A DNA stretch of 64,000 nucleotides from Gracilariopsis chorda (taxonomy: Eukaryota > Rhodophyta > Florideophyceae > Gracilariales > Gracilariaceae). Below, in pieces: positions 3,327 through 44,678 of the stretch; positions within the stretch are counted from its first letter, which is position 1; each line of letters opens with the position of its first letter. The notes under the pieces are model-generated. The model had not been told where the DNA came from, made no database searches, and saw only the letters and a list, made by a program, of their open reading frames with translations. The stretch covers positions 124,001 to 188,000 of the forward strand of contig NBIV01000167.1 of the NCBI GenBank assembly GCA_003194525.1, written 5' to 3'. The translations under genes were made by a program, and so were the position numbers.

Positions 3327-4730
3327 ATGTCATCACGAAAACATTCGAATAGAGACAGGTCCGGTATCTACCGCTCGACAAGCAGTAGCCGAACAAGTAG
3401 TGCCACACGAAATAGTGACACAATGGAAGTTGCCGAAGCTCTTTTGCAACTCGGTAATAGAAGGAGGTTCCCCACTACGCCAGCTCCCTCAGGTGCCGGA
3501 ACGCCGGCAGCATCCGAGAGGAATGTTGCTCGCGGACGGGGATCTTCAAGCGTAGCACGTCAGTCGGGTGCAGGTCCACTTACTGCAGGTCAGCCTACTG
3601 CAAGTCAGCCTACTGCAAGTCGACCTACTGCACGTCGACCTACTGCAGTTCGATCGCCTGTTGTAGGTCAATCACCTGTTGCAGGTCGATCTACCGGAGG
3701 TCCATCAGGAGCAGCAGCTTCTGGCACATCCCCACACGTTGCCGGTCCATATCTCATAGGTCCTTTTGTGCCAACAACAAGAACATATTTCGCCGGTTCC
3801 GCAGGCGCAGGCTCATCTGGCGCAGGCCCATCTGGCGCAGGCCCATCTGGCGCAGGCCCATCTGGTGCAGCTCGTGGAGCAGTCCCTGGTGCGTCTCGAC
3901 ATGTTATAGGTCCATATTTCACAGGTCCGAATGTCGCAAGTTCATCAGTCGCGGGAGCAGGTCCATCGGGCGCAAGACCATCTACAGGCGGCGCAGCACG
4001 ACCTCCAGCCTCTCGCAAGCGAGCTGTGTCTGTGCCTGCACCTGCGCCTGCGACTGCGCCTGCGCCTATGCCTGCGCTTGCCCCTGCACCTGCCCCTGCA
4101 TCTGCCCCTGCACCTGCGCCTGCGACTGCGCCTGCGCCTATGCCTGCGCTTGCCCCTGCACCTGCTCTAGCACCTGAGGCCGCAGGACAACGGCAATCCA
4201 AGAAAAGTCGGAACTATGATTGCAATAAGTGCAAGCGCACATTCAACACCGTGCAGGAAGCCCATGAGCACAAACGCAGCTGTATACAAGTTCACAAATG
4301 CGCGTGTGGCTATACAACCCCATATGTGAAAGTGTTCTTACGGCACTCCGCAAGGCATGAGGAAAAGAAATGTCCCGAATGTGACCAGACTTTTTTCTCA
4401 AAGGAGGCTCGAAACAGTCACATTGCATCACATCATAGGGTTCCGTCACAACCGCAAAGTTATACCTGCGAACTATGTGGAAGGACTTACTCAAGACAAG
4501 ACAGCTTGAAAAATCATACTCAGCAAATGCACCCAGGCACGATTCCGCTGCCATTTTCATGTCCACATTGTTCTCGTACCTTCACTTCAGAAAGAGCCTT
4601 GAGGACCCACTCTTCCAAATCACATGGGAGAGAAGAGAGGCCGAAACTTCAATGTGACATTTGTGGACGTGAATTCGACAGAAGTTTTAATCTGAAGAGA
4701 CATAGGGATTCTCATAAAGAGGGCCAATAA
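3327..4730 (+). CDS. Six-finger C2H2 zinc-finger protein with Pro/Ala-rich N-terminus
   Basis: A 467-residue intronless frame starting at an ATG. Residues 1-110 are Ser/Arg/Pro-rich with repeated QPTAS/RPTA units. Residues 110-290 carry Gly/Ala/Ser and Ala/Pro repeats (GAGPS and PAPAP runs), so the region is probably disordered. From about residue 295 there are six Cys/His modules: a C2HC-type (CNKC...H...C), an atypical module with CAC spacing, then four canonical C2H2 fingers opening CPEC, CELC, CPHC and CDIC. The protein is probably nuclear and nucleic-acid binding. The target is unknown, and the simple repeats suggest rapid N-terminal evolution. The last 544 bp of coding sequence and the 3' flank are duplicated at 1216-1919. 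It could be an element-borne gene, but no transposase is linked to it. Confidence 0.8.
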   Translation: MSSRKHSNRDRSGIYRSTSSSRTSSATRNSDTMEVAEALLQLGNRRRFPTTPAPSGAGTPAASERNVARGRGSSSVARQSGAGPLTAGQPTASQPTASRPTARRPTAVRSPVVGQSPVAGRSTGGPSGAAASGTSPHVAGPYLIGPFVPTTRTYFAGSAGAGSSGAGPSGAGPSGAGPSGAARGAVPGASRHVIGPYFTGPNVASSSVAGAGPSGARPSTGGAARPPASRKRAVSVPAPAPATAPAPMPALAPAPAPASAPAPAPATAPAPMPALAPAPALAPEAAGQRQSKKSRNYDCNKCKRTFNTVQEAHEHKRSCIQVHKCACGYTTPYVKVFLRHSARHEEKKCPECDQTFFSKEARNSHIASHHRVPSQPQSYTCELCGRTYSRQDSLKNHTQQMHPGTIPLPFSCPHCSRTFTSERALRTHSSKSHGREERPKLQCDICGREFDRSFNLKRHRDSHKEGQ

Positions 4731-6585: not shown

Positions 6586-7713
6586 ATGCTGTTCGAAATT
6601 ACCCTTTGTTCCAAATTACTCTTGTGGGGAAGGGTTCATGCGTACGAGGGGGTGTTGATGACAGATGGGAGGCGTTGTGCCATACCATCGCTTTGCACGC
6701 TCCTGTACGCGCATGCAAAACCTTTTTGCGCAACCCTGCCACTCCAAAAAATCAGTTGCAGAAGCAGCCAGTAGAAGCAGCAGAAAAACGTACAGTGCAT
6801 TGGCTGGTGCTTCATGTTGATTGTCTTCTTGCTGCTCAGTGGCTTGCACTCCAAAAATGACTGCTGTGCCAGCCACTCAGCATAAGGCAGGTTTTGCGAC
6901 GTGGCCAAAGCGGACAGCTGCCCTTTAGTGGAACTCCACATTGCATTGAATAGGGTCACAAAGGGCCATCTATAGCCTTTCAGTCTCAAAATCCCTCTCG
7001 GTGCCACAGCCCTTATTAGTCTGCCGGCCGTTTGTGAGCGTTAGCAAGCATAAGTAGCCTGCATATCCCTTAAGTTCACCCGAGCTCAACGAAACGCAGC
7101 GCCTCCCGCAGCTGAAACCTGATTCTACTCGCCACTATACTCTTAAGCATTTGTTCGTGTAGAAAAGAGAGGTTTTTAATTGATTGGAGGTCTTGCGCGA
7201 ACAAACTGCCTTACATACTTCTCTAGGTACATTGGCACTCCCATTTGACCAACTTCTCTCTACCAATTACAAACTTCAGCAATAGCAGCAGCAGCAGCTG
7301 CAAAGTCTGCTTCTTAGTGACCGGAACTCCCACAATGACTACAGTGCCAGCCACTTACAAAACGGAACGCGTTACCTTTCACACTTATCAACCCAAACTA
7401 CAGTCAATTTACGCACCTACACACAAAACTCTACTGCTCTTGATACTCTAAGCACCGTGGCCCACCAGAACTCTATGAGCGCTACTGCTAGCTAGCACTC
7501 GCAAAAATGCCCGTAGAGCCTCCTAAAGCCACTCCGTGAAGAATGCTTCTCTACCAACGCGCGTTGCAGCGTCGCTTGCCTTCGAAGACCGCATTCACTT
7601 TTCTCAACATCTCCCTGCACTATAATCGTTTTTAAAAGGATAAAGAAGGTGCTTTTGATTGAAGAGAGGTTTTGCGCTGCAATGTAATCTTAAACGCTTC
7701 CTTCCATGCATGT
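6586..7713. repeat. Old tandem array of a ~450-550-bp repeat (family S)
   Basis: Three diverged units start near 6590, 7140 and 7619. Each has a GAGGCGTTGTGCC-like motif, a CAGCAGCAGCAGC tract, then ACTCCCA-AATGACT-CAGTGCCA and a CAGTCAATTTA-GCACCTA block. The same units form the fresh pair at 54504-55410. The third unit is cut short at 7713, where the 5' LTR of the chromovirus begins. It encodes no protein, so it is a satellite or a non-autonomous element. Confidence 0.65.
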
Positions 7714-8540
7714 TGAAGTGCAACGCCCTCAAGCAGGGATTCTGGGTACTTGAACGCTTTCCCGATATTATCGGTTGTGTAGTGTGTATATGAACTACTC
7801 CCCACTATGGTGGATATGGACACGTGGGACACGGTTTTGGGTCAATTGGCGGTTGGCCACAGTAGTGGATGTTGCCACGAAATGTGGAGTATTTTAGTTA
7901 ATATTATTTATTATTTTCACACCCATTTCTGGGAAGCTAGTACTTAGTGCGACGGCGCACTGCCGTCGCACCAGTAAACCTTCCCCAACAAGGGACCCCA
8001 ACCTGGGGAATTGGCTCTAGTTGTTGCCGCTTGCGCGCGTACTCTACTCCTCCTTGGAGGGAAACGCCGTAAACCACGGGACATCTAACCCCCTTGCACA
8101 TCTGAAGGAGACCTATCATTGGGAGTACTAATTGTTCCAAGTGTCTTGGTGTTTCGCCCTGTATAGGGTTATTGTTACCGGCATCGCCGTATTTGTTCGT
8201 CGCTCTCGCGACTCACTTCGCCCTCTCTTCCTCCTCTTCGCCCTTCCTTTTTCCCCTTTTTAGGGTAGCACCTCCCGCTATCCGCGGCTCTCGTGTTCGA
8301 ATCTGCTCACACACCCCCACTTACGTGGAAGCATACCTCTACTGAGGATCACACCCCGCTCACGCGGATACCGATTCTTCGCCTTCACCTCCCTGCGCGA
8401 GTCGCGACAGGTGTCCCTGGTCCTACAAACCGGCTTCGCCGTGACACCTCTGGGAGGGCTCTACCCAACTGGGTTCACCTCGTGAGAGGAAGATCCCGGA
8501 CGTCTTTCGGTGTTTTTCCCCTTTGGGGCATTGCACCACA
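7714..8540 (+). repeat. 5' LTR, family A
   Basis: 827 bp, beginning TGAAGTGC and ending CACCACA. The ends are fixed by comparison with 18434-19257 and with the solo LTR at 51741-52566. It contains a conserved 8-bp-stem hairpin, GCGACGGC/GCCGTCGC (7949-7969), just after an AT-rich TTATTTATTATTTT stretch that may hold the core promoter. Another is GTCGC-loop-GCGAC, whose loop varies between copies while the stem is kept. Confidence 0.95.
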
Positions 8541-8543
8541 AAG

Positions 8544-8561
8544 TGGTCTCCCGACTTAGAA
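8544..8561 (+). other. Primer-binding site
   Basis: TGGTCTCCCGACTTAG begins three bases after the 5' LTR end. Starting with TGG, it would pair with the CCA end of a tRNA acceptor. I cannot name the tRNA. Confidence 0.65.
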
Positions 8562-8644
8562 TCGGTTTTGTTTTCCCTCTTACGAGGTTTGTTTTCACTC
8601 ACCGGAAGTTCCGTGATCGTTTCCCGTCGTAACGATATTTTCTC

Positions 8645-10420
8645 ATGTCGAGAAATCCCTCCGATGCGGAACCAGTGGTTACGCGTAGTCGCTCCCGCGA
8701 CAACGCGGGCACTTCCGAAGTTCGGTTTGTACCCCGTATCCCTTTACGGACAAGTTCCAGCCGTGCTGGCGCCGCTTCATCGCGGAATGATACCCCCGAC
8801 CGGGAACCCCGGAACCTCCTTTTGCCCTCGTTATCACCCCCGCAGGGGAATGCAGCATCGACTCCGGCTGTTGCCGCAGTGCCCCAGGCACCCCGGCCTG
8901 CTCCCGCTGTCGCGGCTTCAAGCCCCCGTGGAACGGGCGATAACACCCCCAGGGGACTTCCCTGGAATCCCAGGTCCGCGCTCTGTGGACCGCCCATGAC
9001 ACCCTTGTAGGGGAACTAAAATCCCTCCAAGAGGTGGTCTCGGCAACCCCCGTAAAGGAGGTCGCCGAGGAACTCCGTATTTTACGGTCTGACGTCAACT
9101 CCGTGTTGGAGAGTTTGGGACAACCCGCCGCCTTCATCGAAGGAGTTGAAGCCCGATTTGATCGGATTGGTGCCCGCCTGGAGACGCTGGAGCAGTTCGT
9201 CCTCATGGACAAACCATCCCCGGGTGATCCGGTAAACGAGGCATCGCACAACGACCAGCTTGCTGGGAAGAAGAAACGCCGTCACCGACGGAAACACCAC
9301 CGAAAATATTCGGACTCCGATTCTTCGACATCGTCGGACTCATCCCGAAACCATTCGGTTAGCTCGAGCTCCTCGGACTCCGACTCGGAGGACGAGAAGC
9401 GAGGCTACTCCTCCCGCTCGAAGCGGTCATCGGCCACTGAAGGTGTGGTTCGAACCCGCCAGAAGGGGAGAAGACACCCCGGTCTCCGGGAATTGAAACC
9501 GACAAACCCGGATTACCGGAAGCTTTTATCATACCGGTACTACCGGCTCGAAGATTCGTCACTTGGACGTACGCCCCGTGGTACGGGAAAGGTGCGAGAA
9601 TGCATTAAGCGAATGCAGCTCTCGCTCCGCAACCAGTATTTTACTGGAGAGGACCCAGTCCTAGTACTGGATTTCCTATCCCGCTTTGTAGCGGAGGCCG
9701 ATATCCTCGGTATGAATGAGGGACAAGCCTATTTGGCTTTACCGTATTTCTTACGGGGAGTGGCGGAGGACCAATACACCTCTGTCAGAGGATCTTCTCG
9801 CGCCTCCGAGGGAGGAGTTACTTGCTGGCCGGAGGCTGTGCAGTATCTTCTGCGCTCCTACGCCACCAACACCGCTATTCAGCAGGCTATCCTCGCTTTG
9901 CAAGATACACGCCAGCGTGCTGGAGAGACCGAGACCGATTACTCGGTGCGCTTTAACAAGGCTTTCCACAGATGTGGTAATGTATACCCCGCTGGGGAGC
10001 GCTGCACCATGTTCATCGATGGTCTTGACCCGGCAATCCGGGGTTTAGTTACCCGTTATCGGGAGGATAAGCGGAGGATCACCTACCTCGAGCTGGTCCA
10101 ACACGCTCGAGCGGAAGGGGATGCACTTCGTGCAAGAACTCCGAACAATCGGTCTAAATCCGCCAAGGCGTTGATGCTGGAAAGTGAAGCTTCCTCACTC
10201 CCGCTCACTGCGGATGGGAACCCTGGACAGGGATTTGATACCGTGCATTTAGCGCAGGGGGATGGTGTGTCGATACCCACCAGTGAGTTGCCGTCAACGA
10301 CGGAGATGACCCATGATACGGGAACAGAAGATCCCGTTCTATACGGTGGTAACAGTCGGGTTCAACCCCAACGACTCCCGTTTTCAAACGGTCAATCCCG
10401 TTATCAACGGCCTGGATAAA
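8645..10420 (+). mobile_element. gag region (family A)
   Basis: Coding in more than one frame. It has a Ser/Arg/Pro-rich head, an Arg/Lys/Ser stretch, then a typical retrotransposon gag core at about 9620-10140 (GEDPVLVLDFLSRF, YLALPYFLRGVAEDQY, and ETDYSVRFNKAFHRCG followed by MFIDGLDP). This would form the particle shell. It is a fossil and no intact polyprotein is claimed. Confidence 0.8.
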
Positions 10421-10494
10421 CTGACACCCGCCCTGCGGTTCGCTTCTCCGATACTCGGAATAATAATCCGCGTGTCGCGGTGCTGGCTCTCATT

Positions 10495-10540
10495 TGCCAC
10501 CTGTGCTATGCCCATGGCCATACCTCTCCTCAGTGTATTT
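10495..10540 (+). mobile_element. CCHC zinc knuckle of the nucleocapsid (family A)
   Basis: CHLCYAHGHTSPQC fits CX2CX4HX4C exactly, the RNA-binding knuckle at the end of gag. It is followed by a TPEEKRSVPTASYLRAKT segment. Confidence 0.75.
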
Positions 10541-11059
10541 GTTCACTGAAGAATATGGCCAAGGTGGTGGCAAATTATGAGGCCCTCACTCCAGAGGAGA
10601 AACGTTCCGTCCCGACGGCTTCCTACCTCCGTGCTAAAACGGACTTTTCCCACGCCCTACCACAGACCACGCGTGCGCGGCAAGCTTCATACACCCCGAT
10701 TCGGGAGATCACGCAACCATCCGTTGCAACCCCCGCTTTTGCGGATAGAAACCCCCGTCAACGGGATGAAGCACTCGTTGTCGAGGAAACCAACCCACCG
10801 CCGACGGCGGAAAACTAACTGAGGGAGTCTCCCCTTTGGGAGAGGCGTCCTCAAGAACGAGGCTTTTGGCGCCCGAGGCGTCCTCGCCTCGCTCCCCGGT
10901 GAAAATCCTCTCGAGGAAAGACACCGCTGACGCGGACTCTGCGCACCTCGGTGTGTTGCGTCGCCCGTGGATACGGAGTAAAAATCCCCGGATTCCCGGT
11001 AGAGTCCTGGTCTTGGCCAAGCGCAACTATAAGGTCTATGCCGACCTTGGCCTTGACCC

Positions 11060-11370
11060 CCAGTTTATGGTGAGGTTTCTCACCGTCCTGGATACAGGTG
11101 CAGGCCCCAACTTTGTTGTGGAATCATTGTTACCCCCGCTTGTGCGGTCGCGTATCCGCTCTGACGCGGTCCCCGACATTTCGGATGAGAACAACAATCC
11201 GTTACAAACGGTGGGCACAGTGGACCTCGTCGTGAGACTTGGTACCTCTGTGGTAAAGTTGGACTTCATCTTTTGCCGTTCATTGGCAGCACCAGTCATA
11301 CTGGGATGTGATTACTGCGACAGATTTGTCGACGCAATCAGGCCCCGCCTCAGGCGTGTAGAACTTGACG
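11060..11370 (+). mobile_element. Aspartic protease domain (family A)
   Basis: The active-site motif is VLDTGAGPNFV (DTGA near 11091), followed by a hydrophobic PVILGCDYCDRF flap-side block. This is the usual layout of Ty3/gypsy proteases ahead of reverse transcriptase. Confidence 0.85.
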
Positions 11371-12039
11371 ACGGATCGTCGGTTCCGATTGTTCGCCGCC
11401 CGCTAAAGCGGTCCTCTCGGAAACAAGTTCCGCTCCCTGCTGCGCAGGAACCACCGCCCGCGTCCCGCGAGTCCACCAAGCTTTGCGTCGCTGCCTCGGT
11501 TTCTATACCGGCTGAGTCCCAAGTCTGGGTGCAGGTAAATTCCCGTCAACACGGTCTTCGGGTTATACAACCCCTCGCCTCGTTGTACGAGAAATCCCAG
11601 CTGGCGCTGGCTAATGGAATTGTCTCCATTTCCCCGGATGTCCCTTTCCGGATATTGGTTGCCAACCTTGGCAAACACCCCCAGTATCTGGTCAAACACC
11701 AAGTAATTGGGAGTGTAACCCCCATCCTATGGGAATGCTGCCAACAACGATGACAGCCGCCGATGTACTCGGAGTTACCACCTCTTCTGAGGAGTTCGCC
11801 TCGCCGTCCGAAGACGTCAAGTCTAAGGAGGGGGAGGAAACCGCTACTTCAGCGTCGAACATACCGAGTAACTCGGAATTGGAATTGCGAACCACACCTG
11901 TTCCACAGGACAATGCTCCATCGAGCAACGACCGGATTGATCCGGAAAAAGCACTTGAAGCGCTGAACTTCAGCCACGTGCCAGAGTCGCACCGCGACAA
12001 ACTCCGTACTATGTTACGGGAATTCACCACAATGTGGGA

Positions 12040-12760
12040 TGGCTCGCTTGGCGAGATTAATGCAACGGAACACCGGATCGATTTAATCCCCGGTGCGCGA
12101 CCGGTTGCACAACCCCCTTACAGGGCAGGTCCGAAAGCTCGGGAAGAGGAGCAATCCCAAGTGGACAAGATGCTCCGCGCAGGGGTGATTGAGCCCGCTC
12201 AATCACCCTGGGCATCCCCAGTTGTACTGGCTTTGAAGGCCGACGGAACCTGGAGGTTCTGTGTCGACTACCGCCGGCTCAATGCCGTGACTGTTAGGGA
12301 CACGTACCCCATCCCTCTTATGGATGAGTGCATTGACTCCCTTGGAGACGCCACCGTGTTCACGGCCCTTGATGCCAATTGGGGATATTGGCAAGTACCT
12401 GTCAGACAGGAGGATCGCGACAAAACCGCATTCACCTGCCATGCAGGAACGTACCGCTTCAAGCGGATGCCATTTGGGTTAACCAACGCCCCCGCCACCT
12501 TTCAGCGTGCAGTAGATATTCTACTCAACCGCTTTAAGTGGCGGAGTTGTCTGGTCTACCTTGACGATATTATCATCTTCTCCAACTCGTTGGACGACCA
12601 TCTCACTCACGTCCGAGACGTGCTGACCGTACTCCGCGGTGCGTGAATTACCCTCAAGTTGAGGAAATGCGAGTTTTTCACAGATACTGAGAAGTATCTG
12701 GGTCACATTATCCGTCCTGGACGGTTAGCGATCTAGAAAGCTCGAGTCAAATCCCTCGTT
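12040..12760 (+). mobile_element. Reverse transcriptase domain (family A)
   Basis: It carries the Ty3/gypsy signatures VIEPAQSPWASPVVL, WRFCVDYRRLNAVTV, RMPFGLTNAPATFQ and the catalytic LVYLDDIIIF (YLDD at 12557-12568). Confidence 0.92.
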
Positions 12761-12999
12761 GAGGCGAAAGAACCCCGTACTCAAACGGAACTGCGCTCCT
12801 TTCTGGGGCTGGTCAACGTCTATCGACGGTTTATCCCGAACTTTTCGGATACTGCAGCGCCCCTGAACGCGTTGTTGCGAAAGGGGAACCCCCCAAAACT
12901 GGGAACATTTACGCCCGAGCAATCGGAAGCTTTTAACTCCTTAAAGGAGGCTGTCACATCAGCACCAATCCTACATCTCCCAAAACTTGGGTTGCCATA

Positions 13000-13370
13000 C
13001 TCCGTAGATACGGACTCGAGCGACTACCAAGTCGGGTGTGCTCTTTTTCAAACCACCCCCGAAGGGGAACGACATCCAATTGGTTATTGGTCACGTTCAC
13101 TCAATGTTCATGAGCGGAACTACTCCGTATCGGAGAAAGAGTCCCTCGCCGTCGTATGGGCGATGTCCACTCTGCGCCCCTACCTTATGGGAATTCACTT
13201 CACCGTGTACACGGATCATTCCTCATTGAGGTGGTTGATGAATATCTCCGACCCGTCGGGACGCCTCATGCGCTGGAGACTCCGCCTCGCGGAATATGAC
13301 TTTCAAGTCATTTATAAAAAGGGTGCGCAGAACACCCAGGCCGACGCTTTATCGCGGTTACCCACAAGTG
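13000..13370 (+). mobile_element. RNase H domain (family A)
   Basis: DTDSSDYQVGCALFQ, YSVSEKESLAVVWA, FTVYTDHSSLRWL and NTQADALSRL are the ordered RNase H motifs of gypsy polyproteins. Confidence 0.9.
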
Positions 13371-13722
13371 GGGAAGCACTCCCAACGGAGGATGATGAAG
13401 TCCCATGTTTCATGGCCATAGACCCGGATGATCCGGAACATGCCGTCGAGGCTAGGCCAGAAACCTGGGACGAGGATGCTGATTTTGACGAACTACTCGC
13501 ATCGCGAGATAAATCTGAGAACCCGTTACCGGGAAACTTTGTACCGGTATCACCGGAAGAAATGATCCGAGAACAATTCGGCGACCCATTCTGTACGAGA
13601 ATTCGTGCCCGTATCAACGGTGGTGAAGATCTCCCTTTCGGGGTAAACGACAAAGGCTACCTCGTAAGAAAGGTCGAAGCCCGCCCACAGATTGTGGTAC
13701 CACATTCCCTGCAATCGTGGGT

Positions 13723-14760
13723 GTTACATCTATCACACTACGCCCCCATTGGAGGTCACCCAGGTGGGAGGAAACTCTACCTAACCCTGCGAAGGGATTT
13801 CTATTGGCCCGCAATGGCGGTGGATTGCTACGCAACTGTGCGGTTTTGTAGCGAATGCGCGAAGAATCGCGTCAAACTCCGCAAAAATGCGAAGAAGATG
13901 AAACTATTCCCCGCAAGGGCGCCGCTCGAGTTTATCGCGATCGATATTCTCGGACCATTACTCACCACGAAACGTGGAAACAAGTTTCTACTTGTCATTA
14001 CCGACCGCTTTTCTAAGCTGGTACGGACTGTCCCTCTTCGGAGGATAACCGCTCTCACGGTGGCCCAGGCTCTGGTGACGCACTGGATTTTTGTCTACGG
14101 TCCCCCTGTAGAGGTGCTCTCTGACAACGGGAAGCAGTTCGTGAGCAAGTTCTTCCAGGATGTTTGTCGCATCCTGGATGTCAAGAACTTGTTCACGACT
14201 ACCTACCACCCCCAGTGTAATGGGCAAGTTGAACTGTTTAACCGGACGTTACTCGCGGCGTTACGTTCCTACGTCGCTGACCACCCAACGAATTGGGATC
14301 TCTACGCTGATGCGGTAACCTACGCGTACAATACGCAGGTACACCGGACTACCGGAGTTTCGCCATTCGAGTTAGTTCTATCTAGAACACCCCCGCCTGT
14401 GGCGCTGGAACCCCAAGCTACCTTGGACAATTTCCCATCTGTGGGTATCTACCGGCAGCAATGGAAGCAATGGCTTTCCAAGCTGGTCCCCGCTGCGTGG
14501 AAGTCTATGGCACGGGCCCAAGCCGCTTACAAGCGGAATTTTGACGCTCGCTTGCGAGGAAAGACCTCCCCGATTCGGGCAAATAACTACGTCTTCATCA
14601 GGAAGGAATACTACAACCCGGAACGGGAGAAGCGTCACAAACTCTCGCCTGTGGCGGATGGACCCTTCAAGGTCATCTCTGTTAACACCGACACTGTCGT
14701 GGTAGAGATGGGCGACACGCACGAACGGATTTCCCGTGATCGTGTTGTCCTTGCCCCTCC
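13723..14760 (+). mobile_element. Integrase domain (family A)
   Basis: An HHCC zinc module (H-SHY...GGHPG, then CSECAKNR at 13723-13870) is followed by a DDE core: FIAIDILGPL near 13930, LSDNGKQF near 14118 and CNGQVELFNRT near 14225. A GPF-like module (SPVADGPFKVI, about 14650) ends the domain. Confidence 0.9.
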
Positions 14761-14917
14761 TCCCTCGTCAGAGGTAGTCCTGGATCCAGACAACCCCGTT
14801 TCTACGGACTCCGCAACACCGGAACATCTGGGAGTACTAGACCTACGGTACTACCAACCCCAGCCGGGGACTCTCAGACCTACCGACTCTGTCGGACTCA
14901 CCGGCTCAGCCGGGTAA

Positions 14918-16185
14918 TTCGGGCCCCTCAGCGCCCGCCCCTACCACGTCTGCCCCACTGGCGCGCATCTATACCCGCCAGGCGGGGAATTTTATCCCTT
15001 ATCCCGCCGCTCCGTCTAAGGAGGGGGAGGGGAACACTCGTTTTCGAGGAACGATATCGCCGTCGCAACGGGAAACACACCGTAACATACGGAACACTGA
15101 CCGTGGAGCACTGGAGTATGTCACGCGACACTAATCCCCCGTTCCCGGGCAGTGCTGTGCAACAGGAACCAGACGCGCAGGCCCCGCAAAAGCGGCAAAT
15201 ACACCGTTTGTCACGGGAAAACGAGAAGCCTCATTCCAATACCGCAGCAGCAGAAAGGCAATCGCCCGATGCCTCGAAGCCGCCGTTGGCGGAAGTCCCC
15301 GCGGAAGCGGTTCAATCAGGTCGATCAGACCCGCGCCCTGCGGAGAAGGGGCGCCCAGATACGCCGGCCTCACAGGGGAATACCCACACCCCTCTTGGGG
15401 AAAAAGGCGGCCAAGCTGCAGTCGAAGCTTTAAGCCCTGGCTCGCAAGCACCGGAAACGCCTCCCGTCGTTGACGGAATCAAAGCCCCCGCTACGGGGAA
15501 TAATTTGCGCCAACCCCCGCATCGCTGCGGCGAAGAACCGAGGAACTCGGGAATAACGCGCGCCATCGCACGCTCGAAACCGGTCGTACCGGACGCTGCT
15601 CCTCCTCACGGAGATGGTGTACTGCGCTTAGCGGCAATTCCCCTGAAAAAGGTGTCATCGGCACCTGACCGGCACCCCCCAGAGGGAATTTTGACCAAAA
15701 TACCGGTGTACCGGAGATTAGCCCCAGGCAACCCGTCAGTAGCCGGGGACACCACGGCATCGCCGGAACGTATGGTGCAAAGCGCTCGTGCGCCTGCCAG
15801 GGAGGCGGTTTGCCACCCAATCACCGTGTCGCACGGGACCCCCCAGGGGATTGTGGAAATGCCGATCCCGCAGGAGCGGTCATCTTCCCGCAAACTCGCG
15901 GTTCGTGAGCTCAAACGCGAAGGCGGAGCCCAAGTCCCCCGCCGACTGGCGGCTCGCCCGGCCTACCGTGAAGACGGGAACAACGACACCCCTGGGGAAC
16001 GACTTGCCGGTGAAAACCGTGACACCACACACCCTCTTGAGGGATATTTTCCCGCATGAGCAGTGGCCACTAGGACAGCGCACGGCAACGTCGGAGTTAT
16101 CGCCGAACACCCTGCCAAGGGACATTATACCGCACCGCGGGCAACCCTCGCCAGGGATTACAACCACCACCCGGCACGGCCGGCA
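14918..16185 (+). other. Pro-rich linker between integrase and chromodomain
   Basis: About 1.25 kb of low-complexity Pro/Ala/Glu-rich coding potential in more than one frame. It is crowded with CCCC-loop-GGGG type hairpins. I recognise no domain. It is unusually long for the spacer between an integrase and a chromodomain. Confidence 0.5.
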
Positions 16186-16189
16186 GGTC

Positions 16190-16350
16190 TACGAACGAGA
16201 GTTCGTAGTAGACCGACTTGTCGGACACAACTGGGACCAGGATGGTATTCTAAAATACTGCGTCCGCTGGTACGGGTATGACCCCAGTGGGGACACGTGG
16301 GAGCCAATCGAACACCTCCCACGGTCGCAGGTCCTGCGATACCACCGTCA
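16190..16350 (+). mobile_element. Chromodomain (family A)
   Basis: YEREFVVDRLVGHNW, YCVRWYGYDPSGDTWEP and HLPRSQVL match the chromodomain fold (V-R/K-W-x-G-Y...TWEP). This places the element among chromoviruses, whose integrase-linked chromodomain guides insertion to particular chromatin. Confidence 0.92.
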
Positions 16351-16590
16351 AACGGGAACTGCAGCCCCAGCCACGCTGGTTAATGCCCAAGTTGGGTAAC
16401 GTTGCCGCGCGAGCGGGGAGCGAAAGGAAAGGATAACAAGGCAAAGTCCGTCGAAGACGGGGAACTCAACCGAGAAGCACCGTTCTAAACGGGAAAGTTT
16501 ATTCAAGGGAGCAGCTAGCTCCCCACAATACTACACTACACTAACTGGCATAGCCAGGGAAAGAAGAACCAGGAAATTGGACCAGAGGTT

Positions 16591-18377
16591 TCACTCACCC
16601 CCATCGTCCGGGGCGTAACCCCCAGCAAGGCGGTAGGCCAACGCGTCCGCCATGGTGGTGACATCCCCCGATACCTCGGCAGCGCTAAGACCGGCACCCC
16701 GGAGGAAACGTGCGATGATTTCGTTTTCATTCGCCGTCACCCCGCTGGGGATAGAAGGTCCGGCACTTGCCGCCGAAGGGTCAGCAGCCGGCTCGGCCGG
16801 AGATGCCCCCTCTGGGAAAGCTTCCGCGCTAGCGCTGGTTTCCTCTACATCCATCTCCCCGGGTTCTTCCGGTTCGTTATCGACCATTGGGTCATCCCCG
16901 CCGTATGCGCGGTAGTAGTCGTCGGAATCAACGTACCCCACTGGGTGGTCTTCCGGCACATGCCGGGGCGTATCGCGAAGCTCGCGCGCCTCCTCGGAGG
17001 AAATTTCCCGGAACTCCCAGGGGTCGAAGTAGATAAAATCCCCCGCAAGGGCGGTGTTTCTACCGAGTCCCGGACCACCGGTGTTACCGCTACCGCCATC
17101 CAGACGACCACTTTGCTCCAGTGGTACCTCACTCCAGCTAACGCTGTCGATGTACCCAAGTAATTGGAGGACCTCTTCATTGTTGGCCTGGCCCCCAAGG
17201 GGGATGCGAAGATCCAGGTTTCGGATCGCTGCCCGCACACGCGGTTGAAGGAACCAGAGACGATACTGGTCGTACGCCTCGTTGAGGATATAAGCCGCAC
17301 TGCGGGCCACCCACTTCGTAACCACTACGGACCACAACCCCGACCGGGGATCCTACATGAGCAGCGAATCGAGGTACGTAAGTACCGGCGGGAGTTCTAT
17401 GTAGCACCCCCGGCAGGCTTCATGGAAGCGCCACCACTCGGGGAGTGCTACATACCGACCTAGTCGGTGAGGCGGCGCAATCCGCTCCATCTCCACGTTC
17501 TGATATGGGATAAAATACCCGAATCGGGATCGCCAACGCCGCTCGTACCGGATGAAGTTTTGGAGAAAGTTGGACTGGTATTGCCGGGGAAGGTACCTGA
17601 ACTCCGCCCGAATAATCGGTCGCTCCCAGCAAAGGGCTTCTTGCCGCACTGCGGGGAAATTCCTCCAAGCGAGGGTCTCGAGGCGGAACAGGTTCTCGCC
17701 GTACCCAATCTCCCCGCGAGTGCAGAAGTAGCTAACGTCGAAGCCAAACTCCGGGGGACCGGTACATCGAATGGAGCCCGGCTCTTCCGTTGATACGCCA
17801 TGCGCGTCAACGCGGTCTGTGCCGCAGTGACGGTCTCGCCCGAGTTTCTTCGGAGGTGGTGACGTGGAATCGCAATCCGGTGACGCCAATCCCACGATGT
17901 GGTGACTGCTCTGGGCAGATCCCCCGGAAGGGTGTCTGAACCATCCGCATAAGCGGTGACCAATCCCTCATTGAGGACAGCGACCGGGTGAAACCACGGG
18001 GCAAGGCGCAGGCGCGACGCGTGATTCCAATTCATCGGGTTGAGCCCCACCAGGGTGTTGTAGGTTGGCCAGTTGGACACCGGAGTGGTTCCGGAGGACA
18101 CCACCGAAGGTGGTAGTGCGAAGGGATGGTCGGCTGCAGCAGCCATATTCCCCGGTTGTACCGGATTTCGATCGCCCTGAGGCAGGGGAACTGACCAGAA
18201 ACCGGTGGTGTATCGCCCGAGAAGTCTCGGAGGTTGGCTGTGGTTGTTGATATTGTTGTCGTCGTTCATTTTTCCCTTTTGGAGGGTGGCTGTTGTTGTC
18301 GTTTGTGTGCTTGATGACTCTGGTGCAGAGGGATTTACCGGAGAACCGGAGACAAAGCACGCGCTTTTATCACCCAT
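16591..18377 (-). mobile_element. Opposite-strand coding region between pol and the 3' LTR (family A)
   Basis: About 1.8 kb coding on the minus strand, in a few open pieces. Recognisable blocks are NWPTYNTLVG, LAPWFHPVA, YADGSDTLPGDLPRAV, NFPAVRQEALCWER, SNFLQNFIRY and RFGYF. The same blocks in the same order occur on the minus strand of the related element at 43718-44479, so this is a genuine family protein and not a shadow frame. The far part is acidic and Ala/Pro/Ser-rich. I recognise no fold. Antisense ORFs in this position are known from some plant Ty3/gypsy elements. Confidence 0.8.
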
Positions 18378-18421
18378 TTTAGTCTGGGAATCCTCTGCGT
18401 CCGCGGTCGTTTTCCCGTCTT

Positions 18422-18431
18422 AAGGGGGGGA
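18422..18431 (+). other. Polypurine tract (family A)
   Basis: AAGGGGGGGA lies directly before the 3' LTR start (TGAAGTGC) and is the expected plus-strand primer. The related element has AAGGAGAGGA at the matching place (near 44667). Confidence 0.75.
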
Positions 18432-18433
18432 TA

Positions 18434-19257
18434 TGAAGTGCAACGCCCTCAGGGAGGGATTCTGGGTACTTGAACGATTTCCCGATATTATCGGTTGTGT
18501 AGTGTGTATATGAACTACGCCTCACTATGGTGGGTATGGACACGTGGGACACGGTTTTGGGTCAATTGGCGGTTGGCCACAGTAGTGGATGTTGCCACGA
18601 AATGTGGAGTATTTTAGCTAATATTATTTATTATTTTCACACCCATTTCTGGGAAGCTAGTACTTAGTGCGACGGCGCACTGCCGTCGCACCAGTAAACC
18701 TTCCCCAACAAGGGACCCCAACCTAGGGAATTGGCTCTAGTTGTTGCCGCTTGCGCGCGTACTCTACTCCTCCTTGGAGGGAAACGCCGTAAACCACGGG
18801 ACATCTAACCCCTTGCACATCTAAAGGGACCCATCACTGGGAGTATAATTGTTCCAATTGCATTGGTGTTTCGCCCTGTATAGGGATATTGTTACCGGCA
18901 TCGCCGTATCCGTTCGTCGCTCTCGCGACTCACATCGTCCTCTCTTCCTCCTCTTCGCCCTTCCCTTTCCCCCTTTTTAGGGTAGCACCTCCCGCTATCC
19001 GCGGCCCTCGTGTGCGCATCCGCTCACACACCCCCACTTACGTGGAAACATACCTCTACCGATGACCACATCCCGCTCACGCGGATACCGATTCTTCGCC
19101 TTCACCTCCCCGCGCAAGTCGCGACAGGTGTCCCTGGTCTTACAAACCGGCTTCCCCGTGACACTTCTGGGAGGGCTCTACCCAACTGGGTTCACCTCGT
19201 GAGAGGAAGATCCCGAACGTCTTTCGGTGTTTTTCCCCTTTGGGGCATTGCACCACA
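18434..19257 (+). repeat. 3' LTR, family A
   Basis: 824 bp, TGAAGTGC to CACCACA, close to the 5' LTR with scattered substitutions. Confidence 0.95.
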
Positions 19258-20244
19258 AAACCCTCGCGGTATCATCGTCCAGCAATTTCCAAGTACCCGA
19301 AAGGCTGCAGGGACACAATCGACCGCACAGGTGAAGAAAGATATCCCTCAAAGTATGAGGGAATCTCTACAGACGGCGACAGACAAGAAAAAAAAGCCCC
19401 AGGAAATGCATAAGATATGCCATGACCAAAAGGTGAGAGTGATAACCAAAGTGGAACAAAGATATTACATCTTTATGTACATGCCATCGAAGGGTGCTCA
19501 CCCATACCCATTGAGAGGGATGAACGCTTGGCTCATGAGAGCATAAAGTCAAAATTGCCTCCCAGGTCCACGGGAGTCTTCAAGGTTATTTGTTGTAATG
19601 AACAGACAGTAACCATCTGGGAAAACCGACTCGAGAATACCGTGTCGAAACACAGAGTAATAAAAGCTCTGCGCTTTGAGCCCACACACCAAGTGGTACC
19701 ACCCGCAGAAAAGACGAATCCCTCGACACCAATAAGCCAAAACCAAAACGGAACACCACTGGAAGCAATCCCTGATTGGAGAAGTCCCGCCTCCACTGCC
19801 TCTCCCCAAGAAAATTCCATTCAGGCTGGAACCAAAGAGTAAACGGTAGAACCAACCGTCCCCTCCACGGTCTGCCCGAAACGTGACAACCAGCCACCTC
19901 CAGGGAATGAATCTATGGACACCGAATAAATAATCGATTGCATCGTCGGTCACTAGCATACCATATTCGGCACTCGTTACAGTGTACGGTGGTATGGCCA
20001 ATCGGTCTTCCATGATACCATTGAGCGGCCTGAACACACACTTAATACCTTCCTCATAAGGTAGTAGCGCAAACTAGGCAATACCCGACCCGACCAATTG
20101 GATCACGTAACACCACTGCCGTGCAGCTCCGCTAAGCAGAGGGGGGGTGACTGTTTCGAGCGCAATTCCGAGAGATATGGTACTAATAAGAACTAAAAAT
20201 AAGAAACAATACTCCACATTTGCGCACAACATACTCATGAGTTG

Positions 20245-22816: not shown

Positions 22817-23608
22817 TGTATTGCAATGCCCTCAAGGAGGGATTCTTGGATCTTGGTTGATTTCCCGACTGTTTCAGTAATGTACTTGTTGCATGAACTA
22901 CGACCAATTATAGTGTATTTGACACGTGGGACAGGTAACAGTCAATTGGCGGTTGGCCACAGTAGTGGGCATGAACCAACAAAGTGGAGTAATTTATTTT
23001 TTTTTATTTCTTATTTCTACACCCATCTCAGGGATTGTTAGTACTTAGTGCGCCGGCGAGTTTCCGTCTCACAAGTAAACCTTCCCCTAAAATGGTACCC
23101 CAACCTTGTTAACTGGCTCTAGACCTCACCGCCTTCTTGTTTTCTCTACTCCTTTTTGGAGGGAAGCACCGTAGCATACGGAAAGTCAAACTCCTTTGCC
23201 TATCTAAAGGACCCGAGTATTAGGATTTTCATTCCAACTGTCTTGGTGTTCGCCTTGTATGAGGTTTATTTACCGGCACTGCCGTCAGTCTTCGTCACGA
23301 AACTCGTGAATCAGCTCCCTCTTTCTTTTCCCTTTACTGGATGGCTTTCCCGCTACCCATGGCTCGTGTTCGCGCGTGCCACTAACGGGGAGATCTCGCC
23401 TTTCTAGAGGACGAACACCCCCACAAACCAGTCTTGGGGATACCTGATTCTTGTCTCAACATCCCTGCACAAGTTGCAACGGATGGCCTCAGCCTTACAA
23501 ACTGACATAGTCGTGGCACTTCTGGGAGGGCTCTATCCAACTCGGGTCACCTCTAACGAAGAAAGATCCCAAACATCTTTCGGTGCACTCCTGCTTCCGG
23601 GCATTGCA
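22817..23608 (+). repeat. LTR, family B copy 1
   Basis: It starts TGTATTGCAATGCCC and ends near GGGCATTGCA. It aligns throughout with the family A and B LTRs, for example GTCAATTGGCGGTTGGCC, ACACCCATCTCAGGGA and ACCTTCCCC. Its right end is uncertain by a few bases and I found no target duplication. Confidence 0.75.
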
Positions 23609-24089
23609 CTGCGTCAGTGTCCTCAGAATGCTAGATAGAGGTGCTACATCGCAAATTTCTTACGCAAAAGCTCAAAAATACTACGAAAATGATAGATTCT
23701 GCTAGTTTCTGGCGCTTGCCAAGTAAAAAGTAAAATTTTATTGGAATTCACAGTTCCATTTCTTACAGAGCCTTGCCTCACCTGCACTGCACATCGCTAG
23801 TTTCAAGTTTGGAGCAAGTTCATTCTCAATTAAAAGCTAGATACAGATCTCGAAATGGCGCTGGCCGCTGCGCGGCCAGCACCATTTCGAGCACCCAACC
23901 AAAACTAATATTTTTATTTCCATCTTTTGAATTTCAAACTTCATACTGCCCTAGTTTGACTTCTAACCCATCCCCAGGAACTCATCTGGGCAGCTCTCTA
24001 CGTTCACACAAACCCGACACACCGCGCATCAGATTCCAATAGGACCCATTTCGTCGTTCTAACAGCCTCAACGACACTCCAAAACATCA
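23609..24089. other. Intergenic, with a near-perfect 20-bp hairpin
   Basis: No gene seen. At 23849-23891 two 20-base arms (CTCGAAATGGCGCTGGCCGC and its complement) pair at 19 of 20 positions around a 3-base loop. This lies between the LTR and the 3' end of the first minus-strand gene of the cluster. Confidence 0.7.
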
Positions 24090-24950
24090 CTAGCCTTCTT
24101 CTCCCTCTTCCCTCTTTCCATGCCTCCTCTTCAACCGACTCTTAACCTCCAATCCTTCTTCGTCCTTTTCCTCGAACCTCCTTTTCACTACCCCTCTACC
24201 TCCAGGAGTAACTGGAGACCAACTCCCGACAGCACCTCCCACCCCACCTTCCCCTCCACCTCCATACATCTTGTTCCGCATATCCTCGACTAGATACACA
24301 GCCCTGTTCACCAGTAAAAGCCTCTTCTCCAACTTCAAAATCCGTCCTCGCAACTCCTCATTCTCCTTCCACAGCCTCCCCAGCTCCTCTCCCACACACG
24401 CTACAACCCCATCGTCGTGCTGCTCTGACCACAACCCAGCCTCCCTCACCCTCCGGCGCAACTCAGCCACAGAACCCATCGGCACTTCTTCCTCTAACGC
24501 AATCAGAACCATCCCTCCAAACTCCACGACAAACTCCTCAATACACTCATCCAAACGCTCCTTAAGACCTCCCCCAGCGCTCTTCAATAGTTCCTTCATA
24601 TGGCGATAGAACCCATCCATTGGTTTCCCTCCACCTCCCCCTACCCCTCCTCCTCGACCACCCTTGCCGGCACCTCCCTCCCCACAATCCCTTCCCATCA
24701 TCGTCCCAACCCCAAGCTCTCCGATCCCAACAACCGCCTTCTCCTCGCCCCTTTCACCATCACCATCCCCTTCCTCATCCCTCTTCTCCCCCGTAGGCGT
24801 CTCCGGCATTTGTTTCATCTCTGCTTTATCCAACAACTCCAGGAGCTGCTCATCCCTCTTCTCCCCCCAAGACGTCTACGGCACCTCTTTCATCCCCGCT
24901 TTATCCAACAACGCCAGGAGCTTCTCATCATTCATGGATCCGCTCGACAT
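24090..24950 (-). pseudogene. Charged, coiled-coil-like cluster gene 1 (one in-frame stop)
   Basis: The frame begins at an ATG at 24950 (MSSGSMNDE) and stays in phase to 24090, apart from a single early stop. The N-terminus contains two copies of a ~23-residue unit built on ELLDKAGMK / ELLDKAEMK. Next comes a Gly-rich linker (GGGVGGGGG), then a helical part (YRHMKELLKSAGG, ENEELRGRILKLEKRLLLVN) with heptad-like spacing, and a basic tail (RLKRRHGKREEGEEG). A coiled-coil adaptor is plausible. I recognise no family. A functional product would have to start after the stop, so I call it a probable recent pseudogene. Confidence 0.5.
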
Positions 24951-25159
24951 GGCTACTACACTCCCCACCCCAACGGTGATCCCGTTCCCAACCCTCTACC
25001 ACCAAGCGTGCACACTCCAACTACTTATCCATCCCCATTTTTTCAATACGTTTCCGCGCCATTTCCCACCGCCATACCACGTGTCCCACCAATGATCAGA
25101 AACAGCCTATCTAGGACAAAATGTTACAATTCAGTCACCCTAAGTATGTAAAGGTAGAA

Positions 25160-26343
25160 CTACAATTCTATCTGAAGGAATGGTCGAAAACAAGACCCAA
25201 AAGGCCTCGATTGTTCTCCCAGACTCGCAACATACCTCTCAAAATTGTACTCTAAGTCCATATCCACAGCCATATCTAAAAGCAACAACACAAAAAAAAT
25301 ATTTTTCTCTACTACAGGCCCCAGTCCCCTTACATTCTGCAAAGAAGTCTCCTTCACAAATGTAGATATCAAATAATTAAATACCACAGGGAACAGCCTT
25401 CCAGTAAAGAGCCTAATAGCAGCCAAACCATCTGTTATCCCCACCACCTTCTTCATACAGTCCCGCAAACACCAAAAATCAGCTCACCAATACCTCTCTG
25501 CACATATGGAAGCCCTATCTCATTGTTAATGCTGTCCCCAGTCACAAAGAACATCGTCAGCCGCTCCACAACATATGATAGAGCCCCAAACAGGAACCCA
25601 ACACTAAAAAATGCAACAGCACCAGTCTTAAGTTATGTTCTAAGCGACATTGGCGTTCCCAAGAAATGATACGTAACAAAAATACAAGCATTCAACGGCA
25701 CCAGATCTCCCACTGTGAATCCAAGTAGTCTGTTTCGAATCACAGAAACCCTTCTCAGCCGTTCCCTCTACCTCCAACGTACAAACCCCAATGAGCCAAA
25801 ATACCTCCTATGCAATGAGGACACAATATCGAAGAGAAGCCAATGCAAAACCGTCTCCAATATCACCACAAATAACATCTTCGGAGACATCCTATCATCA
25901 CCCACCACATAATGCATTAAAACGGGTTTCAAAACCCCATAAAGAACACCAGTGGCTAATGAAAACATAAACTCATTAAAGCTGAACATATTTCCAGGGC
26001 CTTTAGAAAGGTTTGACGCACTCTCCAGATACTCTTTTAAGTGCCTACTGCCATACAGCACGTGCAAAAAATTTGCATTCGTTAAGATATGATTATGTGT
26101 CGGTATAGCGTCGAGAACTTCGTATATCTTCGTCACATCCTCCAAAAATCCAGCAGTCAGCAACCTCGACGCCTCTCGCACAACACTCTTCTCCATATCC
26201 GTGTTATACCGAATTTCAAGTACTTCATCAAACCTCATCACCGTCTCATTGGGAAAGATGTCCGCATGTATACTGGTGCTCCGGTCACTGACCGAAAGTT
26301 GGAAATAGTATTCATGGTGCGTGTGGATGTTCTCAAATGACAT
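25160..26343 (-). pseudogene. Multi-pass membrane protein, cluster gene 2, decayed
   Basis: It starts at a good ATG (26343, MSFENIHTHHEYYF) with an intact first 191 codons. Coding character continues to about 25160 through a few interruptions, including one change of frame. Hydrophobic stretches that could span membranes include LATGVLYGVLKPVLMHYVVG, MLFVVILETVLHWLLF, a GFTVGDLVPLNACIFVTYHF stretch and TGAVAFFSVGFLFGALSYVV. No family is recognised. Its orientation and spacing fit a co-oriented block with the neighbouring minus-strand genes. Confidence 0.5.
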
Positions 26344-26350
26344 GAATCTT

Positions 26351-26413
26351 CAAGAGTCGTGAATGAATGTTCATAAGTCGTGAATGAATGTTCAAAAGTC
26401 GATAATGAATGTC
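26351..26413. repeat. Three tandem 21-bp repeats just upstream of cluster gene 2
   Basis: Units CAAGAGTCGTGAATGAATGTT, CATAAGTCGTGAATGAATGTT and CAAAAGTCGATAATGAATGTC (each 21 bp, shown as 26351-26371, 26372-26392 and 26393-26413) lie 8 bp from the ATG. They could be a protein-binding array in the promoter or leader. Confidence 0.85.
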
Positions 26414-26996
26414 TAACCTCTTCATTTGAACCAACTTCATCTGTGCTTAAATGCACAGCTTATCATCTTCTCATTTGCTCACCCCTTGTCCTTCCCAACA
26501 CTCAAAACAATATTATGAACCTCTACACGATAATGCCTTCACCCTCTTTACTCTTCTTCATACATCAAGCACGGCACAATGGATTCATGTATGAAAAGAA
26601 CCAGTACTTTCTATATCAACAGAATGGACAATCGAGGTATTTGGCTATAATAACGGGATCCTTCACACCCGTACAACCACCTTCAATTCTCACACATTAT
26701 CCCATACTCAATTTTACATCCATTCGTGTTTCATATGAGCTGCCCCTTTATTCTCCCCTCCAATAAACCCATCCCAAGTTTCTTCTCATACTTGTAGAAC
26801 TATCTTTATGGAATATAACAAAGCGAAATCTTTGTGAACCTCATCCCTTCACTATTAAGCATCATTCGAATGAAGCCGCATAAAGAGCAATCCCCATCGT
26901 AGTAAACATCTCCCATTCACTATAAACATTCACTATAAAGATCAAAAAGCAATCATCAGATTTAACAAACTTATATCACTAGTTTACTTATCATTA

Positions 26997-43496: not shown

Positions 43497-43717
43497 GATG
43501 AGATATATGCCACAGTGCGGGCAACCCACTTGGTCACAATTACTGACTAAAGCCCCGACCGGGGATCCTGAATCAAAAAGGAACCGAGGTACATGAGTGC
43601 TGCCAGGAGCTCAATGTAGCAACTCCGGCCGGCCTCGTGAAACCTCCACCATTCGGTGAGTGCGACATACTGGCCCTGTTGGTGGAGTGGAGCAAATCGC
43701 TCAACCTTCAAGTTTTG

Positions 43718-44479: not shown

Positions 44480-44678
44480 AAGGGTGTGAACTGGGTGAGT
44501 TGACCAAGCAGGTGAAGAGTTTGCACTTGTGGAAGGCTGGTTAGCAGCTTTTGCAGGAGGTTGTTTCTCTGAGGCAGAGGTTTGACCCGGTTACTCGCAG
44601 AGGCCTGGAACTTTATCACCCATTTTCCGCTATGATTTGCCCGCGTTCGCTGTTGCTTTCCCCACTAAGGAGAGGATA

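Follow-up and report, generated by a model that had tools for sequence, protein, structure and literature searches.

Short, perfectly paired hairpins occur at very high density along the entire length of a long terminal repeat (LTR) retrotransposon at positions 7714-19257 of a 64,000-nt stretch of the genome of the red alga Gracilariopsis chorda (hereafter the window). Judged by its coding sequence, the element is a chromovirus (Ty3/gypsy with a chromodomain), ordinary by its proteins, and this copy carries in-frame stops. The same hairpin unit recurs in a clade of five retrotransposon families of the source genome (91.3 Mb, 1081 contigs searched). We tentatively favour, with somewhat less than even confidence, the view that these dispersed hairpins are under selection as binding sites, probably for the nucleocapsid that the element encodes, and that they act on the genomic strand.

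Perfect stems with loops of 2-6 nt were counted and compared, for the element and for the MSH6 gene of the same window, with 30 dinucleotide shuffles. The element contains 389, 177 and 34 stems of at least 4, 5 and 6 bp respectively, versus 168.6, 51.6 and 13.3 in the shuffles (spread ±7.4 for stems of at least 5 bp). Stems of at least 4 bp thus occur once per ~30 nt (389 in 11.5 kb), where chance would give one per 68. An earlier note on this DNA, made from the sequence alone, had described dense hairpins throughout the element; these counts bear it out, and four of the hairpins it quoted lie where it had placed them (CTCCG-tat-CGGAG at 13123, CCGCT-cga-AGCGG at 9414, CCTGC-cat-GCAGG at 12435 and CCGTG-tt-CACGG at 12354). 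The excess is found in 5-bp stems with 3-nt loops (83 vs 9.5) or 2-nt loops (30 vs 9.2) and in 4-bp stems with 4-nt loops (98 vs 27.9) or 3-nt loops (85 vs 34.9), an enrichment of 2.4 to 8.7 fold, and counts are near chance from loops of 8-9 nt upwards. Hairpins are spread alike across the LTRs, gag, pol, linker and antisense-ORF (open reading frame) region, including 28 in the 5′ LTR (7714-8540, plus strand, with TG...CA ends; 7.9 expected) and 26 in the 3′ LTR (18434-19257, plus strand, 95.5% identical to the 5′ LTR; 7.8 expected). Their presence in coding and non-coding parts alike indicates that their function is not tied to translation. The left flank of the element has 30 stems of at least 5 bp versus 33.5 expected, and the remaining window, which includes related LTRs, has 193 versus 152.2 (10 shuffles).

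Within the coding stretches, hairpins with CC...GG outer pairs were compared with 200 synonymous shuffles per ORF stretch, in which protein and codon counts are preserved. Observed counts are 32 versus 3.6 in the gag ORF (9034-10419, plus strand), 36 versus 5.9 in the RNase H and integrase part of pol (12872-14917, plus strand), 15 versus 3.4 and 14 versus 3.1 in the two parts of an antisense ORF (16591-17337 and 17460-18377, minus strand), and 13 versus 1.9 and 20 versus 4.6 in the remaining two stretches; in each of the six, none of the 200 shuffles reached the observed count. When all stems of at least 5 bp are counted, whatever their outer pairs, the observed number was matched in 39/200 shuffles in the antisense ORF 16591-17337, 5/200 in the antisense ORF 17460-18377 and 1/200 in the ORF 15103-16059. 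The check first proposed, by dinucleotide- and codon-preserving shuffles, therefore leaves the CC...GG hairpin density unexplained. MSH6 (56297-60157) has 62, 23 and 12 stems of at least 4, 5 and 6 bp versus 57.7, 17.0 and 4.3 in shuffles. The contrast that had been drawn with this gene stands for the 4-5 bp stems, which are at or slightly above chance, and for CC...GG hairpins (1 vs 2.0 in synonymous shuffles); it does not extend to stems of at least 6 bp, of which MSH6 has some extra (12 vs 4.3). An origin of the hairpins by chance from base or codon composition is extremely improbable and was rejected: G+C is higher in the element (0.52-0.59 in 2-kb bins) than in the host flank before it (0.47-0.49), but dinucleotide, codon and synonymous shuffles all fall short, 8-nt loops show no excess, and sister families of equal or higher G+C have little or none.

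The distribution of the hairpins among the retrotransposons of the genome was assessed by a DNA search with a piece of the reverse transcriptase (RT) region (40 copies scored, eight loci cut out) and by a Pfam RT search (150 scored matches of 3380 candidates, 30 loci cut out), and 20 further stretches were chosen from the list. All eight loci of the DNA search, all 30 of the Pfam search and 12 of the 20 further stretches are hairpin-rich, with 15.6-18.5 CC hairpins per kb in the first eight and 4.0-13.5 in the other rich loci (0.8-1.6 expected). Seven further stretches are hairpin-less gypsy elements of four separate groups, at 0.2-0.3 CC hairpins per kb, and the last, L048, includes the 5′ end of a copy of the window's family beside another element. 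All 12 copia loci cut out, from 150 scored, have 0-0.3 CC hairpins per kb. Generic stems of at least 5 bp show a mild excess in the hairpin-less gypsy stretches (4.8-8.0 per kb vs 4.0-5.2 in shuffles), and so the clean contrast lies in the CC...GG unit and its geometry. One of the gypsy families without the unit (L044, L045, L047 and L058) has 35% G+C, the window's host flanks being mostly at 0.43-0.51.

The rich loci form five families, F1 (that of the window element) to F5, whose pol DNA is 64-73% identical. These constitute a clade with full support in a tree of 31 RT-integrase proteins, some of whose branches are long; the clade is nested in a larger group of database proteins of which the one member named is P0187 from Agarophyton chilense, and the hairpin-less gypsy groups fall far outside. 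Relatives in other algae were compared as proteins only, those named among 120 listed matches belonging to Agarophyton chilense and Chondrus crispus, and a search for relatives in viral contigs confirmed none. With P0187 as query, families of that sister lineage were found in the same genome. Pieces of 1 kb from four of them (L071-L074, not themselves placed in the tree), of similar or higher G+C, contain 7, 14, 8 and 14 hairpins versus 9.6-10.4 expected, compared with 31, 21, 22, 24 and 17 versus 9.4-10.1 in pieces of equal size from F1-F5. Given that sister and unrelated families show little or no excess, the trait cannot be put down to the host or to reverse transcription in general. On the evidence of this genome, its strong form originated within the F1-F5 clade or close to where that clade begins, and sister lineages may carry a weak form of it.

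The geometry of the unit is apparent from the frequency with which each next pair outward from the loop is closed, pooled over F1-F5 (chance 0.25). Around 3-nt loops this frequency is 0.25, 0.27, 0.38, 0.51 and 0.43, then falls to 0.10 at the sixth pair; around 4-nt loops it is 0.25, 0.30, 0.37, 0.47 and 0.23, the fifth pair being merely at chance level; around 2-nt loops it is 0.24, 0.25, 0.28, 0.40, 0.47 and 0.20; and around 8-nt loops it stays near 0.25 throughout. A sixth pair is avoided around the 3-nt loop, with 19 of 196 hairpins of 5-bp stem and 3-nt loop (5/3 hairpins) extended versus 49.5 expected (p=3e-8). Taken over loops of 2, 3 and 4 nt, these profiles point to a limit on total span of about 12-13 nt. 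The unit is a stem of 4-5 bp with a loop of 2-5 nt and a span of at most 12-13 nt, perfectly Watson-Crick paired and mostly with CC...GG outermost: among 5/3 hairpins of the element, the first base is C in 68/80 and the second in 63/80 (outer pairs C-G, C-G). Recognition of spaced CC...GG in DNA with an indifferent interior was rejected as the whole story, since interior complementarity is too common: at F1 CC-N9-GG sites, pairs 3-5 are all complementary in 31% of 189, versus ~2% expected at 0.25 per pair. CC...GG is itself over-represented at these spans, in part, we think, through out-of-register pairs of CCC and GGG runs. Two longer stems were also observed. That at 12183-12208 (plus strand), originally given as 11 bp around a 4-nt loop, is in fact 12 bp around a 2-nt loop; it exceeds the size cap and is not conserved in F2-F5. 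A perfect 10-bp stem with a 5-nt loop, GTGCGACGGC-GCACT-GCCGTCGCAC, is present in both LTRs (7947-7971 and 18667-18691) and in a solo LTR at 51738-52566 (minus strand; 88-89% identical to the element LTRs, 21 hairpins vs 7.1 expected), and has one pair broken in L048; longer than the capped unit, it may be a separate LTR signal.

Pairing within the unit is strict. Perfect 5-bp hairpins with CC outermost number 138 versus 9.9 expected, and those with a single inner mismatch, counted clear of perfect hairpins, number 6 for G·T (5.7 expected), 12 for A·C (7.0), 14 for purine-purine (13.9) and 15 for pyrimidine-pyrimidine (14.4); this count left out 36 cases overlapping a perfect hairpin (18.3 expected). 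Were G·U as good as a Watson-Crick pair, about 125 hairpins with a single inner G·U would be predicted, against the 6 seen and 5.7 expected by chance. At dyad centres common to families, G·U accounts for 8 of 45 single mismatches. Wobble asymmetry was tried as a strand test and rejected: a first A·C excess (161 vs 53.4) came from a count, left unused, that took in offset versions of perfect hairpins together with innermost pairs and family members that overlap, and it vanished in stricter counts (117 vs 118.2; 12 vs 7.0).

The flanks of the unit are specific to the family. The base before the hairpin is C or A in F1, F4 and F5 and G or T in F2 (F1 vs F2 at -1, p=8e-10), and in F3 the CC sits at positions 2-3, one pair further in. 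In the antisense-ORF region, A follows the hairpin in 18/47 cases and T precedes it in 6/47, as compared with 96/249 and 36/249 in sense regions; this common polarity points to the genomic strand as the probable one on which the unit is read. It may alternatively act as single-stranded DNA, with hairpins in the minus-strand cDNA or needed on both strands, for example in holding cDNA in the particle, steering plus-strand priming or hindering sense-antisense annealing. Such a role, which we regard as somewhat unlikely, would accommodate the strict Watson-Crick pairing, including the counts for G·U and A·C given above, and a related antisense protein frame in another family makes antisense RNA plausible. 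However, the size cap is not predicted from DNA hairpin stability alone, and flank polarity cannot separate RNA from its cDNA.

Local folding energies are below those of shuffles on both strands, by -5.6 and -5.7 kcal/mol per 120 nt in the first 6 kb of F1. On the sense strand, the differences for F1-F5 are -5.6, -2.7, -1.7, -2.5 and -0.8 kcal/mol per 120 nt (four shuffles each). Some hairpin-less families (also four shuffles each) come out equally low as the weaker of these, at -1.9 (L042), -1.75 (L044) and -1.6 (copia, L059), and others lie at -0.2 (L046) and +0.4 (L063), the strand of L046 and of the copia pieces not being set; MSH6 is at -0.2. Stronger folding on both strands would be compatible with a shielding role, in which dense hairpins hide the RNA from small RNAs or prevent long duplexes that trigger silencing; with a stem of at least 4 bp every ~30 nt, most 21-nt targets would overlap one. 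This explanation is nonetheless distinctly unlikely, as it would not predict that G·U is excluded or that a sixth pair is avoided, and other families under the same host manage without hairpins.

Four-fold sites have nearly saturated between the families (identity 0.27-0.44), yet hairpin density is kept: over 2055 nt, F1-F5 have 70, 49, 48, 57 and 32 hairpins, versus 21.6-24.4 in synonymous shuffles; F5 is the weakest, its 32 hairpins comparing with 31 in the highest shuffle. Of 192 dyad centres, 144 are found in one family only and 48 in at least two, with 11 in at least three and one in all five. Centres are shared more often than expected from independent origin at codon-permissible sites, with 23 shared versus ~5.5 for F1-F4, 8 versus 3 for F1-F2 and 10 versus 2 for F4-F5; of the nine family pairs besides F1-F4, eight reach at least twice the expectation, and the weakest is F3-F5 (2 vs 1.2-1.3). 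Where both sides of a pair are changed in another family, a fraction of 0.31-0.56 still pairs, versus 0.19-0.33 with the partner slid, although these comparisons are not independent and that from F4 to F5 equals the slid control (0.32). More than one Watson-Crick type occurs at 10 of 192 pairs of shared centres, a modest number. The one dyad that is perfect in all five families is the CCGCT-TCA-AGCGG hairpin at 12454-12466 (plus strand), which lies at the RT motif YRFKRMPFGL. Its forms in F1 to F5 are, in order, CCGCTTCAAGCGG, CCGATTCAATCGG, TCGCTTTAAGCGA, CCGTTTCAAACGG and CGCTTTAAGCG; the fourth pair is C-G, A-T, C-G, T-A and C-G in the same order, and the F2 form goes with Asn where the other families have Lys.

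Within families, variants per site in stems and in the rest of the sequence are 0.030 and 0.032 in F1 (8 copies), 0.011 and 0.019 in F2 (7 copies), 0.056 and 0.059 in F3 (19 copies), and 0.097 and 0.084 in F4 (7 copies). Among 114 distinct stem-pair variants in these copies, three are changed on both sides, one of which is paired. In some LTR pairs stems seemed to vary less than loops, but constraint was rejected, because a hairpin that is called in one of two sequences cannot show changes that arose on that sequence's branch; with both directions summed, the rates are about those outside stems (0.092+0.060 vs 0.129-0.137; 0.027+0.013 vs 0.039-0.043), and the comparison of L048 with the window element likewise agrees with no stem constraint once the one-sided definition is allowed for. 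We interpret the within-family pattern as copies decaying neutrally after insertion, by which constraint on the active lineages is masked. Better conservation of stems than loops in aligned copies, on which the earlier note's proposal turned, is thus found between families, as shared centres and re-paired arms, and not within them.

The same copies bear on a mutational origin, in which a clade-specific RT folds back or switches template at near-palindromes and perfects them, the hairpins being a by-product. Template switching can create and maintain stems, according to part of PMC8794818, and the hairpins described there resemble these in having perfect stems, some with both arms changed. Templated copying would yield perfect stems without G·U, and a moderate rate of correction would, by our reckoning, leave near-hairpins near chance, as seen. 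At three places in the LTRs one hairpin is replaced by another. In one case both arms and the loop are changed (CCAAG-TGT-CTTGG in the 5′ LTR, CCAAT-TGC-ATTGG in the 3′ LTR and CCAAT-CAT-ATTGG in a relative), and at two sites the solo LTR carries a different hairpin from the 5′ LTR (CCTCTGGGAGG / CCCCTAGAGGGG; CCTCGTGAGAGG / CCTCCACGGAGG, the 5′ LTR form of the last read by eye). Between the same two LTRs the loop also changes with the stem kept (TCTC/TCCC), as had been pointed out at the outset. Despite these cases, a mutational origin is unlikely. Two-sided stem variants are rare, as the 3 of 114 attest, in the variant clusters viewed (48 of 98, by eye) stems are mostly broken, lengthened or created by one change at a time, and recent copies showed no burst of hairpin gain. 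Copying gives no reason for a sixth pair to be avoided or for flanks to be family-specific, and the excess is small or absent in sister families, whose RT is homologous. Relative to the template-switch hairpins of PMC8794818, as far as that part of the account goes, the present ones thus differ in that such events are rare in young copies and in that stem length is capped.

On the favoured reading, as selected binding sites, the F1-F5 clade would be under selection, rather than mutational pressure, to carry many copies of one small hairpin along the whole genomic strand. Each unit would be a putative binding site of a nucleic-acid-binding protein that the element itself encodes. The CCHC nucleocapsid portion of Gag is the most probable one, and it would grip a short hairpin by the base at numerous points of the genome. 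The genome, as RNA or as cDNA, would then be recognized and compacted through many sites, acting as dispersed packaging or condensation signals. The nucleocapsid is the natural candidate reader because the unit is limited in size and has a defined foot, a free loop and genomic-strand polarity, and family-specific flanks are as expected if they co-evolve with a family-specific reader. The candidate motif is a CCHC zinc knuckle, CX2CX4HX4C, at 10495-10536 (plus strand), with a counterpart in the F2, F3 and F4 stretches and a single knuckle in each of F1-F4. Among the roles first suggested for the hairpins, packaging or binding remains the best; resistance to RNA interference is possible and misses the size cap and the exclusion of G·U, and a palindrome-making mode of copying draws limited support. 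The five-family clade, the 12-13 nt cap, the G·U exclusion, the family flank codes and the little or no excess in sister pieces go beyond what that note described.

Several observations weigh against such a reader. The main misfit is the strict Watson-Crick pairing: compared with Watson-Crick pairs, the acceptability of G·U is about 6% at best, an RNA reader should tolerate some G·U, and a function at the cDNA level or on two strands therefore stays plausible. Loops are highly diverse, with no common motif (the commonest triloop is found in 5 of 85 F1 5/3 hairpins), and a search for regular spacing found it near-random (gaps 2-208 nt, CV 0.88). The knuckle of these families is of the ordinary type, and none was found in the F5 stretch. 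F5 is also the weakest family in the 1-kb pieces (17 hairpins vs 9.6; stems of at least 5 bp, 3 vs 3.3), and two sister pieces, L072 and L074, are slightly above chance (14 vs 9.7 each), L074 having 8 stems of at least 5 bp versus 3.2 and L072 4 CC hairpins versus 1.6. Finally, when copies of one family are compared, conservation of stems does not exceed that of other sites. In more general terms, it is possible, though less likely than not, that the unit represents a generic hairpin code, with perfect complementarity, a fixed maximal span, a family-specific foot and a free loop and interior, which a dedicated protein of the element would read, perhaps on the cDNA; the genome would then be a lattice of putative binding sites written through codons. 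We know of no described retroelement or virus with such a code.

The element shares with other chromoviruses its LTRs, a CCHC Gag, the RT-RNase H-integrase order and a chromodomain after the integrase; as far as the literature found goes, genome-wide capped hairpins are present only on the side of the F1-F5 clade. Genome-scale ordered RNA structure, with local folding energy below that of shuffles, occurs in some RNA viruses; unlike it, F1-F5 have one small, perfect Watson-Crick geometry from which G·U is excluded. In the model of dispersed packaging signals in RNA viruses by Twarock and Stockley, as set out in part of PMC6281560, many short stem-loops are likewise spread along the genome, and these are described with a common recognition motif. 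Here, in contrast to that part of the account, loop sequence is unconstrained, the signal resides in the closing end (CC...GG and flanks), hairpins are packed very densely and binding is putative. The genomic RNA of yeast Ty3 is also structured, with a SHAPE-derived fold that has a well-folded core, and its packaging sequences are not precisely defined (PMC11381356, in part); its description there, to that extent, contains no single repeated capped unit. No description of hairpin-studded LTR retrotransposons was found in the open-access literature, judged by titles and abstract openings, in keeping with the initial remark that no described family with the trait was known to its author. As far as that literature shows, this hairpin architecture in an ordinary chromovirus is undescribed.

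The remaining anatomy of the element is conventional in its order: RT, RNase H and integrase are followed, past the integrase core, by the chromodomain. The RT part of pol (11729-12646, plus strand; RVT_1 Pfam match) has an in-frame stop at its end in the window copy, and the chromodomain (about 16202-16327; Pfam Chromo, 3.4e-10) lies in an ORF at 15788-16399 (plus strand). Pfam searches gave no match for the gag ORF or for the antisense ORFs ahead of the 3′ LTR (16591-18377, minus strand). The second part of the antisense ORF is related to an antisense frame at 43718-44479 (minus strand), within a related-family remnant at 43502-45469 (plus strand; antisense region 70% and LTR 69% identical). 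The antisense frame is the best-matching one in the remnant at 43502-44470 (67% and 51% identity in two pieces, E 6e-101), although other frames match there too (best 4e-59), the DNA being 70% identical. A further LTR of a related family is located at 22822-23609 (plus strand, 68.5% identity). No target-site duplication of the element is evident, the flanks CATGT and AAACC (7699-7713 and 19257-19275, read by eye) being different; this points to a recombined or decayed copy and is not evidence against the chromovirus class. The 5′ and 3′ LTRs differ at 37 aligned sites, with one hairpin change hitting both arms; the copy may be old, or two insertions may have recombined to form it. Elsewhere in the window, GC skew is strongly negative at 24001-30000 (-0.52 at 24001-26000, then -0.30 and -0.26 in the next two bins), a CTGCGC-rich repeat with a 12-18 bp period forms two related stretches ~3 kb apart (1115-1198 and 4012-4191), and the MSH6 protein is 69% identical to a Gracilaria domingensis protein and 85% identical to one of source 'lgn', which makes a gracilariacean red alga the most likely host.

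If selection maintains a hairpin every 30-50 bases, the codons of these elements are written under a second, structural code, and one that would be strong enough to keep families hairpin-rich past near-saturated synonymous sites. Were the hairpins instead a by-product of reverse transcription, they would represent an extreme case of template-made hairpins. The F1-F5 clade provides a natural example, very strong statistically, of what may be dispersed genome recognition in a retroelement; the sister families of the same genome, which show little or no excess, serve as internal controls. The case touches the question of how Gag locates the genome that it packages.

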